A stretch of 64,000 nucleotides of DNA from Cellvibrionales bacterium. GTDB taxonomy: Bacteria; Pseudomonadota; Gammaproteobacteria; Pseudomonadales; JAHEIH01. Below the pieces are notes generated by a model. That model worked only from the letters and a program-made list of their open reading frames with translations, did not search any database and was not told the origin of the DNA. Below, in pieces: positions 1,922 through 9,511 of this stretch. Position 1 is the first letter of the stretch; every line of letters begins with the position of its first letter. The translations under genes and the position numbers were made by a program. The stretch is from positions 180,987 to 244,986 of the forward strand of contig JAHEIH010000026.1 in NCBI GenBank assembly GCA_024639455.1. The letters run 5' to 3'.

Positions 1922-1979
1922 GGAGGGCTCCATCGGTGGTTATTACCACTGCTGACATCCCTCCCCATAACAATGGGGA
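1922..1979 (+). promoter_or_regulatory. Riboswitch expression platform with competing hairpins over the btuB ribosome binding site
   Basis: TCCCCAT (1962-1968) and ATGGGGA (1973-1979) form a perfect 7-bp hairpin with an ACAA-type 4-base loop that hides the GGGGA ribosome binding site of the start at 1985. An upstream GGAGGG (1922-1927) can instead pair with CCCTCC (1959-1964), with a nested GTGGT/ACCAC hairpin at 1936-1949. The two pairings share bases 1962-1964 and exclude each other. This looks like a translational on/off switch; the assignment of states is inference. Confidence 0.65.
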
Positions 1980-1984
1980 ACACC

Positions 1985-3919
1985 ATGAAAAAACACTTGC
2001 TCGCCCTCGCTGTCAGTGCAGCAATCACTACCCCTGTCTTGGCTAACGAGATGGAAACCGTCCTGGTCAGCGCCGCGCGCGATGGCATTTTAGAGGCCAG
2101 TAGTGGCAGCAGCGTTACCCTGATCGACGCTGAAACACTCGCACTGCGCCCTAATATCAACGTAGCCGATATTTTACGCAGCGTCCCCGGTATCGCGGTT
2201 AACCGCACCAGCGGCGTTGGCTCGCAGATCCAATTGCGCATGCGCGGTGGCGAAGCCAACCACGTATTGGTCTTCATCGACGGTGTACAAGTCAACGACC
2301 CCGCTCAGGGCGACGATTTCAACTTTGCCCACCTGTTGAACCAAGACATCGCCTCGATCGAAGTGGTTCGAGGTGCTCAATCAGCGCTGTGGGGAAGCGA
2401 CGCTCTATCGGGTATGATCTACATCCGCACCGTTGACGGTTCGCAAGGCAGCCAGGTTTCAGCATTCGCCGAAGGTGGCAGCAACGATTGGCGCCGCGGC
2501 GGTATCAGCGCCAGCACCGGCGATAAAGACGCCAACATTCGCTTTAGCTTCGCCAAAACAGAGACTGACGGTACCAACGTTTCGCTGTTTGGTAACGAAA
2601 AAGATGGCTACAGTAACGATACCGCCAAATTGAAGGGCTTCTATTCATTTAGTGAGCAATTGTCAGTCAATGCTAGCGTGGTTTACGTCGATAGCAGTAC
2701 CGATTTTGACATGCTCGACTACCGCAGTGACTGGGAGACCTGGGCGCCAGTAAACCCTGAAACCTACGGCCTGCCCATCGATGCCGACAACCAATCCAAT
2801 TCCAGCCAGCTTTACAGTACCCTTGGCCTGAACTATCAATCGGCTGATAATACTTGGCACCACTCGTTGCAATATGCCTATAGTCGTGGCAATAACGACA
2901 ACCGTGAAGAGTCTGAATGGTCAATGACCGGTTTTGACGAGACACATTCGACGGCTGAACGCCGCCAATTGACACTGCAGAGTAGCTTCGCGTTTAGTGA
3001 TTACCACGCATTGACCGTTGCTGCTGAACGTGAAGAGCAAGACTTTGAGCTCACTAGCGCTTATCTGAACGGTAACGAGAGCATGGATAGCACCGGTTTC
3101 GCTGTGCAACTTAAGGGTAACTTGGCAGATAACTGGCACTATCTATTAAGTTGTCGCAGTGATCGCAATAGCGATTTTGACGATGCCAATACCTATCGAT
3201 TATCTACCGCGTATCAGCTGAACGACGGCATTCGCCTGCGCGCTGCCATGGGTACTGGTAGCAAGAACCCCACCTTCACCGAGCTATACGGTTACTCAGA
3301 CTCGTTTATCGGCAACCCAGATTTGCAGCCCGAGTCTTCTTCAAGCTGGGAGTTGGGCGTAGACTTTAATATTGCTGACGGCCTGGGCAATGTATCGTTG
3401 ACCTACTTCGACGAAACGCTCGAAAACGAGATTGCTAACGTCTACGACTACGTGACTTGGAGCTCCACTACGGTTAACGAAAGCAGCGAAAGCCAACGTC
3501 ACGGCGTTGAAGTGAGCGTTGATGTTCAAGTGAGTGACAATATTCGCGCCGGCGGGGCCGCCACTAAACTGGTAGCCTACCAAGCTGACGCTTGGACAGG
3601 CGATCGCGTAGCGGAGATACGCCGCCCCGAATTCACCGGTAGCGCCTACCTGCAGTGGACCAGTACGGACGCCAGCCAGTCTGTCGCGGTTAACTTGGAC
3701 TACAACGGCGATATGACCGATACCTTTTACGGCGTGATGAGTGAGACGGCTACCCTGGGCTCCTACACCCTGCTGTCGGTTCAAGCGTCTCAACAACTGA
3801 CCGAGCAATTGAGCGTGTATGGCCGCGTTGAAAACGGTTTGAACAGCGACTATCAAGAGATCTACGGCTTCAATACACCCGGCGCTAACGCCACACTGGG
3901 CCTGCGTATGCAGTTCTAA
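1985..3919 (+). CDS. btuB: TonB-dependent vitamin B12 outer-membrane receptor
   Basis: A 644-residue outer-membrane receptor that imports cobalamin using TonB energy. It has a signal peptide (1-20, ending PVLA), a TonB box METVLVSA (23-30), a plug domain with DILRSVPGIAVNR and QIQLRMRGG, and a C-terminal 22-strand barrel ending in the terminal Phe expected for outer-membrane proteins (LGLRMQF). I chose ATG 1985 because GGGGA lies just ahead of it and the signal peptide starts there; an in-frame ATG at 1973 lies inside the sequestering hairpin. Control by the upstream cobalamin riboswitch supports BtuB over a siderophore receptor. No B12 ABC transporter genes follow. Confidence 0.9.
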   Translation: MKKHLLALAVSAAITTPVLANEMETVLVSAARDGILEASSGSSVTLIDAETLALRPNINVADILRSVPGIAVNRTSGVGSQIQLRMRGGEANHVLVFIDGVQVNDPAQGDDFNFAHLLNQDIASIEVVRGAQSALWGSDALSGMIYIRTVDGSQGSQVSAFAEGGSNDWRRGGISASTGDKDANIRFSFAKTETDGTNVSLFGNEKDGYSNDTAKLKGFYSFSEQLSVNASVVYVDSSTDFDMLDYRSDWETWAPVNPETYGLPIDADNQSNSSQLYSTLGLNYQSADNTWHHSLQYAYSRGNNDNREESEWSMTGFDETHSTAERRQLTLQSSFAFSDYHALTVAAEREEQDFELTSAYLNGNESMDSTGFAVQLKGNLADNWHYLLSCRSDRNSDFDDANTYRLSTAYQLNDGIRLRAAMGTGSKNPTFTELYGYSDSFIGNPDLQPESSSSWELGVDFNIADGLGNVSLTYFDETLENEIANVYDYVTWSSTTVNESSESQRHGVEVSVDVQVSDNIRAGGAATKLVAYQADAWTGDRVAEIRRPEFTGSAYLQWTSTDASQSVAVNLDYNGDMTDTFYGVMSETATLGSYTLLSVQASQQLTEQLSVYGRVENGLNSDYQEIYGFNTPGANATLGLRMQF

Positions 3920-5666: not shown

Positions 5667-5777
5667 GACAACCTCCGGTCGTTTAATTACATCTCGTGGT
5701 AAGATGCACAATAAATAAGATGCGCATTATATACCCATTTATGCGAATACGAAAATAAACTAATTGACGAACTCAAT

Positions 5778-6407
5778 ATGAATACGACTACCGACGCCGA
5801 AAAGCCTAAAAAAATCCCCTTTCAGGCGGCTAGCTTCATGATTAGCGCCCCAACTCTGGCGCTGTGTCCGCCCGATCACGGCGTGGAAGTCGCTTTCGCG
5901 GGTCGTTCTAACGCCGGCAAATCTTCGGCGATTAACTGCTTGACGCAATCAAAGTTGGCTCGTACCAGTAAAACCCCCGGCCGCACTCAGTTGATTAACT
6001 TTTTCACACTCGGCAACGACCAGCAACGACTGGTCGATCTGCCCGGCTACGGCTTTGCTAAAGTGCCGTTGGAAGTAAAAATGAAGTGGCAGCGCCACCT
6101 CGAGGAATACCTGCAAAAACGCCAATCATTGCGTGGCTTAGTGTTGCTGATGGACTCACGTCACCCGCTGCAGGAATTCGACCGCATGATGCTGGACTGG
6201 TGCAAAAAATCTGAGATGCGCGTCCACATTCTTCTGACCAAGTCCGACAAGCTTAAAAAGGGCCCCGCTAGTGCCAGTTTGTTAAAGGTTAAAAAAGAAG
6301 TGGTCGACGATAGCGGCCTGATTAGCGTGCAGTTATTTTCATCGCTCAAACAGAGCGGCTTGGATCAATTGCGCAGCTTGATGCAGAGCTGGCTGCAGGA
6401 CGTTTAA
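5778..6407 (+). CDS. engB: Ribosome biogenesis GTP-binding protein EngB (YihA/YsxC)
   Basis: A 209-residue essential TrmE-Era-EngA-EngB-Septin GTPase that helps assemble the large ribosomal subunit. Its motifs are G1 GRSNAGKSS (near residue 45), G3 [10 protein letters not shown] and G4 TKSDK. The ATG at 5778 is the first in frame. Its position between cytochrome genes and polA is conserved in pseudomonads. The small RNA candidate lies directly downstream on the same strand. Confidence 0.95.
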
Positions 6408-6435
6408 ATTTTTTCACTTTTTTTCATTTTCTCGG

Positions 6436-6462
6436 GAACTATGCCCAAAACGGTGAGTCCTA
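6436..6462 (+). promoter_or_regulatory. Sigma-E/AlgU-type promoter for the small RNA
   Basis: GAACTA (6436-6441, preceded by GG) and TCCTA (6458-6462) are separated by exactly 16 bases. This closely fits the envelope-stress sigma factor pattern GAACTT-N16-TCTGA. It lies 7 to 10 bases ahead of the expected small RNA start. The match is seen in the sequence; the sigma factor is inferred. Confidence 0.6.
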
Positions 6463-6468
6463 TATACA

Positions 6469-6545
6469 AAGGCAGTGTGTTTTGTCTTGTGTAAATCTCC
6501 TAATAAATCTCCATTCGCGCCCAGACTAGTATCTGGGCTTTTTTT
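6469..6545 (+). ncRNA. Candidate trans-acting small RNA at the Spot 42/ErsA locus (engB-polA)
   Basis: About 77 nucleotides between a sigma-E-like promoter and a strong terminator, with no open frame. The body is unstructured and U/C-rich and contains the octamer AAATCTCC twice (6493-6500 and 6505-6512), complementary to Shine-Dalgarno sequences. The 3' end is a GC-rich stem with seven U, as in Hfq-dependent RNAs. The same gap encodes Spot 42 in enterics and the AlgU-controlled ErsA in Pseudomonas. Sequence identity with those RNAs is not claimed. Confidence 0.65.
6519..6545 (+). terminator. Intrinsic terminator of the small RNA
   Basis: GCCCAGA (6519-6525) pairs with TCTGGGC (6532-6538) around a CTAGTA loop and is followed by seven T (6539-6545). 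It would also end engB read-through. Confidence 0.92.
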
Positions 6546-6613
6546 GTCCATGGATGACCTTATGTCCCGGAGGCTATGGATGGTCGAGAGGGAAGTGGTC
6601 AAACTTCTAAGTA

Positions 6614-6720
6614 GTGAGCATCGGTATATTTCACTCGGAACCGCCGTGAATATGTCCCTATAGGCTACACGGCAGCATCCCTGCTGCCGAGTTTCCTCGT
6701 TGAAATATACCTTTGCTCAC
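6614..6720. repeat. 107-bp imperfect palindrome, structured element of unknown role
   Basis: GTGAGCA + GGTATATTTCA (6614-6620, 6623-6633) are mirrored by TGAAATATACC + TGCTCAC (6701-6711, 6714-6720), with 2-base mismatches at the same place on both arms. Inside, CTCGG/CCGAG (6634-6638/6687-6691) and GCCGTG/CACGGC (6643-6648/6668-6673) continue the stem. An alternative inner hairpin CGGCAGC/GCTGCCG (6670-6676/6683-6689) competes with both. No target-site duplication or open frame is seen. It could be a structured RNA, an overlapping 3' element of polA, or a decayed miniature element. Confidence 0.7.
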
Positions 6721-6727
6721 TGTCATG

Positions 6728-6758
6728 ACCCTGCCACCCTGCTAGACATTGGCAGGGT
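6728..6758. terminator. Stem-loop just past the polA stop
   Basis: ACCCTGCCA (6728-6736) and TGGCAGGGT (6750-6758) form a 9-bp stem 12 bases from the polA stop. Neither side carries a good U-run (GTTT on the plus side), so the terminator strength is uncertain. A 3' end protecting polA mRNA is plausible. Confidence 0.5.
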
Positions 6759-6769
6759 GTTTCAAGCCG

Positions 6770-9511
6770 CTAGTGCGCTTCATCCCAATTGATGCCCACC
6801 CCCGCCTCGACCAACAATGGCACGCGCAGCGTTTCAGCCTCTGACATAAGCTGGATGATTTTCTCGCGCACATCTTCCAATTGATGCTCAGCCACCTCAA
6901 ACACCAATTCATCGTGCACCTGCATAATCATGCGCGCATCGACATCAGCTGACTGCAACCAAGCGTCGACCATCAGCATGGCCAGTTTGATGATATCTGC
7001 AGCTGTGCCTTGCATAGGCGCGTTAATCGCGGTGCGCTCGGCCGCTTGGCGGCGCATGCCGTTAGAGGAATTAATTTCCGGCAGGTTGAGTCGTCTGCCG
7101 CGCAGGGTTTCTACGTAACCTTTTTCCGCCGCTTCGCTGCGGGTGTTATCCATGTAACGCTTCACGCCGGGATAAGTGGCAAAGTAGCGATCGATGAATT
7201 CCTGCGCCTCATTGCGGCCGATGTGCAACTGCTTGGCTAGACCAAACGCTGACATGCCGTAGATCAAACCAAAGTTAACGGCTTTCGCGCTGCGGCGCAT
7301 ATCCGTGGTCACTTCATCTAGCGCCACGCCGTAAACTTCAGCGGCTGCCGCTTTGTGGATGTCCTCGCCGTTGGCGAAAGCACGCAGCAAGCCCTCGTCT
7401 TCAGACAGGTGGGCCATGATTCGCAGTTCGATTTGGGAATAGTCCGCTGCCAGAATTTTATAGCCAGGCGAGGCAACAAACGCCTGGCGAACTTTGCGGC
7501 CCTCTTCGGTGCGAATCGGGATGTTTTGCAAGTTGGGATCCGAACTCGACAAGCGACCAGTGGCGGCCACCGCCTGGTGGTAGGAGGTGTGCACCCGGCC
7601 AGTGTTGGGGTCGATCATCTCGCCTAGTTTGTCGGTATAGGTCGACTTCAACTTACTGAGGCCACGGTACTCCATCAATACTCGCGGCAGTTGGTAGTCT
7701 TCAGCCAACTCCACCAATACTTCTTCTGCTGTCGATGGCGCGCCTTTGGGCGTTTTTTTAATAATCGGGAGTTTTAACTCTTCGAATAGAATTTCGCCCA
7801 GCTGTTTAGTGGAGCCCAGATTGAACTCTCGACCACCGATCTGGTAGGCCTGTTCGGTCAGTTCGGCCATGCGCTCACCTAAGCGATGGCTATGATCAGC
7901 TAACATTTGTCGGTCGATACGGGTGCCGTTGCGCTCGATGCGCTGTAGAACGGGTACCAAGGGTACCTCTATCTCGTGGTAGATGCGTTGTAATCCTTCG
8001 GCACGAGCCAAGCGCGGGGCCATGGCTTGGTGCAGGCGCAGGGTAATGTCGGCATCTTCCGCTGCGTATTGCGACGCTTGGTCGATTTCAATTTGATTGA
8101 AGGTCAATTGCTTGGCGCCTTTGCCGGCGATGTCTTCGTAGTGAACGGTCTGCACGCCGAGCTCGCGCATGGCAAGGCTATCCATGTCGTGGCGCCCCGC
8201 GGTGGAATCCAACACGTAGGACGCCAACATGGTGTCATGGGCGATACCGTTCAGCTCGATACCGTGATTGGCTAGGATGTGCTTGTCGTATTTAAGATTT
8301 TGCCCCACCTTGGCCATCGCGGGGTCTTCAAGCAGAGGCTTGAGTGCTTGCAACACTGCGCCGCGATCCAGTTGCGCGGGAGCGCCCAGATAATCGTGGG
8401 CCAATGGGACATAAGCTGCAGTGCCCGCTTCCACGGCAAACGAGACACCTACAATGCTCGCCTGCATGTAGTCTAAGCCGGTGGTTTCAGTATCGAAGGC
8501 GAACAATTCAGCGTCCTTTAATTTTTCTAACCAGGCATCAAACTCGGCCTGCTCGGTGACGCATTGATAAATTAATGTCTCGGGGGCCGCGGGTGGCGCA
8601 ACGACCTCGTCTTCGCTACCACCAAACATATCGCCCTGGCCAGCTGCCGGTGCTGATCGACTTGCCCCAGAAGCATTGAGTTCAGCTACCCAAGACTTAA
8701 ATTCCATCTCGGCAAACAGCGTTGCCAATTTATCCGCCTCGGGCTCTTCGACCTGGATACTGCTCAAATCACAGGGCAGATCAACATCCGTTTTGATAGT
8801 GGCCAACTCATAGGAAAGCGGTAGTTTTTCCAGCGCCGAGCGCAGGTTTTCACCGATTTTGCCACCGACCTTGTCGGCGTTTTCCATGACTCCTTGAAGG
8901 GAGTCGTATTCCAACAGCCATTTCACAGCGGTTTTAGGGCCACATTTTTCCACCCCAGGTATGTTGTCGACTTTATCCCCCATCAACGCGAGATAATCGA
9001 CGATACGCTCGGGTGGGATGCCAAATTTTTCGACCACCCCTTCCCTGTCCATTGCGGTATTGGTCATGGTATTAATCAACGTCACATGCTCGCTTACCAA
9101 CTGCGCCATATCCTTATCGCCAGTGGAGATCACCGTTTCAATACCTTGCTCGGTGGCCTGCTTGGCGAGCGTGCCGATCACGTCGTCGGCTTCCACCCCT
9201 TCGATCACCAATCGGGGCAAGCCCATAGCATCGACGATGTCGTGAATAGGCTGGATTTGAACCCGCAGATCATCGGGCATAGGCGGTCGGTTGGCCTTGT
9301 ATTCGCTGTACATATCGTTGCGGAAGGTCTTGCCTTTGGCGTCGAACACCACCACGATTTTGCTGTCTGCATAGTTCTTTTGCAGCGAGCGCAGCATGTT
9401 GATTACACCCTTTACCGCGCCAGTAGGCTGGCCCTTCGAGTTGGTCAACGGTGGAAGTGCGTGAAACGCTCGGAACAAATACGACGAACCGTCGACAAGT
9501 ACAACTGCCAT
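6770..9511 (-). CDS. polA: DNA polymerase I
   Basis: A 913-residue family A polymerase for gap repair and Okazaki fragment processing. It has an N-terminal 5'-3' exonuclease (about 1-290, with YLALMGDKVDNIPGV), a 3'-5' exonuclease (about 310-500) whose FDTETTGLD keeps the catalytic Asp and Glu so proofreading should work, and a C-terminal polymerase with motif A DYSQIELRIMAHLSED, motif B RRSAKAVNFGLIYGMSAFG and motif C QVHDELVFEV. It starts 13 bases after the M48 protease gene with a clear AAGGAA site, so it can be read as the last gene of a znuA-protease-polA unit. Confidence 0.97.
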   Translation of the reverse strand: MAVVLVDGSSYLFRAFHALPPLTNSKGQPTGAVKGVINMLRSLQKNYADSKIVVVFDAKGKTFRNDMYSEYKANRPPMPDDLRVQIQPIHDIVDAMGLPRLVIEGVEADDVIGTLAKQATEQGIETVISTGDKDMAQLVSEHVTLINTMTNTAMDREGVVEKFGIPPERIVDYLALMGDKVDNIPGVEKCGPKTAVKWLLEYDSLQGVMENADKVGGKIGENLRSALEKLPLSYELATIKTDVDLPCDLSSIQVEEPEADKLATLFAEMEFKSWVAELNASGASRSAPAAGQGDMFGGSEDEVVAPPAAPETLIYQCVTEQAEFDAWLEKLKDAELFAFDTETTGLDYMQASIVGVSFAVEAGTAAYVPLAHDYLGAPAQLDRGAVLQALKPLLEDPAMAKVGQNLKYDKHILANHGIELNGIAHDTMLASYVLDSTAGRHDMDSLAMRELGVQTVHYEDIAGKGAKQLTFNQIEIDQASQYAAEDADITLRLHQAMAPRLARAEGLQRIYHEIEVPLVPVLQRIERNGTRIDRQMLADHSHRLGERMAELTEQAYQIGGREFNLGSTKQLGEILFEELKLPIIKKTPKGAPSTAEEVLVELAEDYQLPRVLMEYRGLSKLKSTYTDKLGEMIDPNTGRVHTSYHQAVAATGRLSSSDPNLQNIPIRTEEGRKVRQAFVASPGYKILAADYSQIELRIMAHLSEDEGLLRAFANGEDIHKAAAAEVYGVALDEVTTDMRRSAKAVNFGLIYGMSAFGLAKQLHIGRNEAQEFIDRYFATYPGVKRYMDNTRSEAAEKGYVETLRGRRLNLPEINSSNGMRRQAAERTAINAPMQGTAADIIKLAMLMVDAWLQSADVDARMIMQVHDELVFEVAEHQLEDVREKIIQLMSEAETLRVPLLVEAGVGINWDEAH

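Follow-up and report, generated by a model that had tools for sequence, protein, structure and literature searches.

A predicted sigma-E-type small RNA on the engB strand of the engB-polA gap in a Cellvibrionales bacterium

The gap between polA and engB houses small RNAs across the gammaproteobacteria, Spot 42 and ErsA among them, which raises the question of whether the same gap in this Cellvibrionales bacterium also encodes a small RNA, of what kind it would be, and in which direction it would be read. In the 64,000-nt stretch of DNA analysed here (the window), the engB (ysxC/yihA) GTPase gene (5778..6407, + strand, ORF of 209 aa) and polA (6770..9511, - strand, ORF of 913 aa) are convergent and separated by 362 nt. 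Judged from its sequence, we consider it likely that 6468-6545 on the + strand specifies a short trans-acting regulatory RNA, which would be transcribed by sigma-E (RpoE/AlgU) from 6436-6462 and ended at 6519-6545.

The -35 box GAACTA (6436..6441, + strand) begins 28 nt past the engB stop codon and is followed, after a 16-nt spacer, by the -10 box TCCTA (6458..6462, + strand), together a promoter of the sigma-E/AlgU type. An A/T-rich tract lies immediately 5' of the -35 box (6408..6435, + strand) and may act as an UP-like element; a comparable tract precedes the -35 box (GAACTT) of the congener (G001, locus L037, JALRIU010000203.1; EngB 80% identical). With a start placed about 6 nt past the -10 box (A6468), the interval to the terminator gives a predicted RNA of ~78 nt (6468..6545, + strand). 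The first-pass annotation had reported GAACTA-N16-TCCTA, a non-coding stretch of about 77 bases and a strong terminator ending in a run of seven U, and had both letters and coordinates right. The predicted RNA folds with a z-score of -2.5 against shuffles into two stem-loops, consisting of a 5' hairpin (AAGGCAG-UGUGUU-UUGUCUU, 6469..6488, + strand), about 30 unpaired bases and the terminator. The tract at 6493..6512 (+ strand), unpaired in both the MFE and the centroid structure, contains two copies of the anti-Shine-Dalgarno-like AAAUCUCC and is the proposed pairing region. The intrinsic terminator (6519..6545, + strand), identified by folding and by a terminator scan, has a G+C-rich 7-bp stem (GCCCAGA-CTAGTA-TCTGGGC, 6519-6538) followed by TTTTTTT (6539-6545), folds by itself at z -3.9, is the sole + strand terminator-like site in 5700-6900, and probably also ends engB transcripts. 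Between the -10 box and the terminator there is no plausible reading frame, and a small protein was rejected as the product, with no start codon accompanied by a ribosome site within the RNA. A sigma-70-like promoter was not found in the gap. A sigma-E-type promoter, a short non-coding RNA, a Rho-independent terminator and a U-tail are the sequence features of the sigma-E-dependent Hfq-type class, and in kind the predicted regulator resembles the short, sigma-E-driven, Hfq-type RybB, MicA and MicL of enterics, although loci and sequences differ and no homology is claimed.

The promoter motif alone proves nothing: the engB-polA gap has the sole GAACT-N17-TCNNA of the 64-kb window, and 1.3 are expected in the window by chance, so that the bare motif is worthless as evidence and it is the place after engB that carries the weight. 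This bears on a plainer reading, in which the site belongs only to the engB mRNA, as its 3' untranslated region with the terminator, the promoter match is accidental, and any short RNA is a product of engB mRNA processing or decay. Such a reading accommodates the chance frequency of the motif and the position of the terminator, which is the first past engB on the engB strand, as well as the lack of conservation of the RNA body, since the bodies of the two congeners align no better than shuffles. Against it stands the layout in the congener, where GAACTT-N16-TCTAT lies 18 nt past the engB stop codon, in the same place and on the same strand, and is followed by a 5' hairpin (AAGUCU-GCG-AGACUU, in the equivalent position), a UCUCCC tract and a terminator with eight T. 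In dinucleotide shuffles of each gap, a + strand GAACT-N16..18-TC within the first 140 nt past engB arises with a probability of 0.016 for the window and 0.024 for the congener, and the joint probability of the two promoters is ~4e-4; they lie at nearly equal distances from the engB stop, and each is followed by a terminator. The promoter format is also that of the genome's own rpoE gene (309 bits to TIGR02939), which is directly preceded by GAACTT-N16-TCTGA and GAACTT-N16-TCATA with the same spacing as at the window promoter, so that the genome has sigma-E as well as promoters of the matching format. These two tandem sigma-E promoters (at 1368 and 1416 of L187, reverse strand) fit the expected autoregulation of rpoE. 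With a 5' hairpin and UCUCC downstream of the promoter as well, we regard the 3' untranslated region reading as improbable. The hfq gene is present in both genus genomes (two in our sample, one of them a 75% complete draft). The proposal that a sigma-E-type promoter drives a short terminated RNA in this gap thus appears sound, with its promoter and terminator layout kept in one close relative and the genes for sigma-E and Hfq at hand.

As to the identity of the predicted RNA, covariance-model searches for Spot 42 and ErsA, which the first-pass annotation had suggested, matched neither model: in Rfam, neither ErsA (RF01719) nor Spot 42 reached gathering level in the whole window or gave a hit up to E 10 in 6300-6900. 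This agrees with the earlier description of an RNA shorter than ErsA and with a sequence of its own. The top Rfam match of the stretch was RF02278, the Betaproteobacteria toxic small RNA, at 23.3 bits, but this is far under the gathering threshold of 50, the first hairpin has several broken pairs, and the score comes mainly from the terminator and a CUCC; that the window RNA is a diverged member of this family is hardly credible, and it was rejected as an identity. With ErsA (Pseudomon-1 RNA of Pseudomonas) the window RNA shares the polA-engB gap, an AlgU/sigma-22 (sigma-E) type of promoter, by sequence only in the case of the window RNA, and the general plan of a 5' stem-loop, an unstructured pairing region and a Rho-independent terminator, with hfq in the genome. 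ErsA acts by Hfq-dependent pairing with the algC, amrZ, oprD and anr mRNAs. In P. aeruginosa it is described as 132 nt long (PMC5819304), with stem-loops SL1-SL3 and, between SL1 and SL2, a U-rich unstructured domain for which target pairing is predicted (PMC8575079), and as strictly sigma-22-dependent (PMC7565897), whereas the window RNA has ~78 nt and two stem-loops, lacks the middle CCCC stem-loop, and lies on the opposite strand, ErsA being on the polA strand. Spot 42 (spf; enterics and vibrios) has the intergenic gap in common with the window RNA but is also on the polA strand, as is evident from the gene order of E. coli K-12, polA(+), spf(+), yihA(-). Spot 42 is transcribed from a sigma-70 promoter and is known to be repressed by cAMP-CRP, whereas the scan of this gap found no sigma-70-like promoter.

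The strand was compared in engB 3' flanks extracted from more than 100 genomes of the order; EngB homologues were found in 115 of 116 order relatives. A convergent polA lies next to engB in 55 genomes, of which 30 carry a GAACT-N16..18-TC promoter solely on the polA strand, three solely on the engB strand, three on both strands and 19 on neither. For gaps of 60-600 nt, a polA-strand promoter is present in 30/45 vs 1.4 in shuffles, and an engB-strand promoter in 4/45 vs 1.5 in shuffles; by eye, the engB-strand cases beyond this genus look accidental, one being a palindromic site (G050) and another a site in a long gap (G076). The polA-strand RNA of one genome (G094) is ErsA according to Rfam (RF01719, 134 bits). 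Together with the promoter survey this makes the polA strand the rule and this genus the exception: the window RNA is on the engB strand, running from engB to polA, and the same survey finds no polA-strand promoter left in its gap. The earlier placement at the Spot 42/ErsA locus therefore holds for the gap and fails for the strand, as Spot 42, ErsA and the approximately 30 polA-strand RNAs all run from polA to engB. The other RNAs of this gap in Pseudomonadales resemble the window RNA in having a GAACT-N16..18-TC promoter, a terminator and often UCUCC, but are mostly 90-140 nt long and polA-stranded. UCUCC is present in 13/38 polA-strand RNAs (4.7 in shuffles, three on the antisense strand) and CCCC in 36/38 (26.9 in shuffles); the window RNA contains UCUCC but not CCCC. 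From its sequence and setting, the engB-strand RNA is probably a new addition to a known kind, the sigma-E-type small RNAs, and faces the opposite way to its counterparts. The survey points to a polA-strand sigma-E-driven RNA as the common condition in Pseudomonadales, also far from Pseudomonas itself and for the most part not covered by current Rfam, with one lineage in which it is reversed. Out of 14 polA-engB loci scanned, one matched the Rfam ErsA model, and the Rfam family seems too narrow for the polA-strand sigma-E-type RNAs of many families. Elsewhere, an ErsA-like RNA with CCCC loops lies on the engB strand 39 nt past engB (L153, from G051) with no polA within ~2 kb, possibly an independent rearrangement.

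How the reversed RNA originated is a separate matter, and the two origins considered here are both compatible with the regulatory RNA reading. In the first, the RNA is a true descendant of an ErsA-type gene that was inverted within the gap as one unit, promoter and terminator included, with later shortening of the RNA. On this view the gap and the class of promoter would have been retained, along with the 5' hairpin, the unpaired UCUCC tract and the terminator, and a covariance model built from seven polA-strand RNAs (R1) matches the full length of 6436-6545 with 31.5 bits (E 1.4e-5 in 153 kb), the top match outside its training set. We do not count this match as homology, because the score is carried by promoter, terminator and spacing: a profile of the body alone, from the same alignment, detects nothing, but as it also misses genuine polA-strand RNAs it is uninformative rather than negative. 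Pairwise alignment and single-sequence and two-sequence profiles of the window RNA against ErsA-type RNAs gave nothing significant. The congener RNA does align in sense, along its length, with the polA-strand RNA of G010 (score 36, reached by 0 and 1 of 1000 shuffles), although this is marginal after correction, being the best of ~80 pairwise comparisons, and TCTCCTAAT is common to the window RNA and the polA-adjacent RNA of G030, whose family is near by EngB identity. With the CCCC of most polA-strand RNAs missing and RF01719 not matched, we treat block inversion as a possible but tentative origin. RNA bodies at the polA-engB locus diverge too fast for an inverted ErsA relative to be separated from an independent gain.

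The second origin involves another site in the genus. In each of the two genus members, the R1 search also found a sigma-E-type RNA between folD and a gene that we take to be dusA, reading its 341-aa ORF as a tRNA-dihydrouridine synthase. Neither gene shares its strand with this RNA (G000 C9:255504-255641, corresponding to L231 1501-1638, - strand; G001 C209:10942-11072, corresponding to L230 1501-1631, - strand). With GAACTA and TCTGA as its promoter boxes, it combines a 5' hairpin, a hairpin with a CCCC loop, a UCUCCC tract and a terminator; it folds at z -5.7 (L231) and -5.2 (L230), and a 25-nt block ending in UCUCCCUAAUU is identical between the two species. The folD-dusA RNA is much better conserved than the engB-strand RNA and closer to the ErsA architecture, and the UCUCC tract is common to it, the window RNA and the congener RNA. 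Rfam does not match it, and a model built from it (R3) detected it, with strict filters, at folD-dusA in no other of 116 relatives. The best match of R3 beyond the genus is the polA-engB-gap RNA of G010 (28.8 bits), and R3 also scores weakly against the two engB-strand RNAs, at 22.0 bits (E 0.008) and 20.3 bits (E 0.02). These results would fit relocation of an ErsA-type gene to folD-dusA, with the engB-strand RNA either arising on its own or derived from the folD copy by duplication and degeneration, but promoter and terminator account for part of these weak matches, and the pairwise similarities of the bodies have p values of 0.02-0.08, so this origin too we hold as conceivable rather than probable. 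The folD-dusA RNA is a better candidate than the engB-strand RNA for the ErsA counterpart of the genus, and may carry the ancestral role. A combined scenario strikes us as rather unlikely, namely that the RNA gene was inverted in place and cut down to a 5' hairpin plus two copies of an anti-Shine-Dalgarno seed, with the complete architecture surviving in an ErsA-type copy at folD-dusA; if it were true, the two would be sibling envelope-stress RNAs, products of inversion and relocation, with a common seed and separate targets.

For the engB-strand RNA itself, the predicted transcription, sigma-E dependence, Hfq binding and mode of action would combine as follows. Envelope stress would free sigma-E, and sigma-E RNA polymerase would make the ~78-nt RNA from the promoter at 6436-6462; Hfq would hold this RNA through its U-tail, and the exposed AAAUCUCC copies would base-pair with selected mRNAs at ribosome-binding sites of the GGAGAU type and lower their translation. 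The RNA would in this way replace, on the opposite strand, the ErsA-type polA-strand sigma-E RNA kept by most relatives with the gap. Pattern searches with the AAAUCUCC seed gave as candidate targets a TonB-dependent receptor (L201), a tannase/feruloyl esterase (L207, -36 kcal/mol) and rpsR, with 13 seed matches vs 9 for a reversed-pattern control, hardly an excess. The L201 and L207 candidates were rejected, as the congener encodes no clear orthologue of either (27-36% identity to the best homologues), and rpsR, present in both species-specific lists, is only a weak lead because GGAGAU is an ordinary ribosome-binding site; in these searches no predicted target was conserved between the two species of the genus. 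The locus offers a testable case of a regulatory RNA gene that can change strand and RNA sequence yet stay in place under the same class of promoter, and the parts worth following are the strand reversal and the folD sibling.

Several repeats were noted around these genes. A dispersed low-copy repeat with the core TTATGTCCCGGAGG..GAGAGGGA occupies 6539-6597 of the window and is also found at other sites (L002-L006, L238-L241), one of which consists of tandem copies. At the window site and at four others examined, it starts exactly at the T-tract of an intrinsic terminator, as if it targeted terminators. Further towards polA, an imperfect long inverted repeat (6613-6721) has 21-nt arms 67 nt apart, and its inner part, GCCGTGAATA..CCCTATAGGCT..CGGCAGCATCC..GCTGCCG, is similar to a repeat that a member of another family (G090, L019) has between polA and engB. 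The congener gap (L037, ~2830-3069) contains a duplicated element, AAAGCGTTATGA[AG]AGCAGGTTGGCG...CGCCAACC/TAATCGCAAT, between the RNA and polA. Elsewhere in the window, a cobalamin riboswitch (RF00174, 68 bits) at 1790-1915 lies 5' of a gene for a seemingly BtuB-like outer-membrane receptor (1973-3919).
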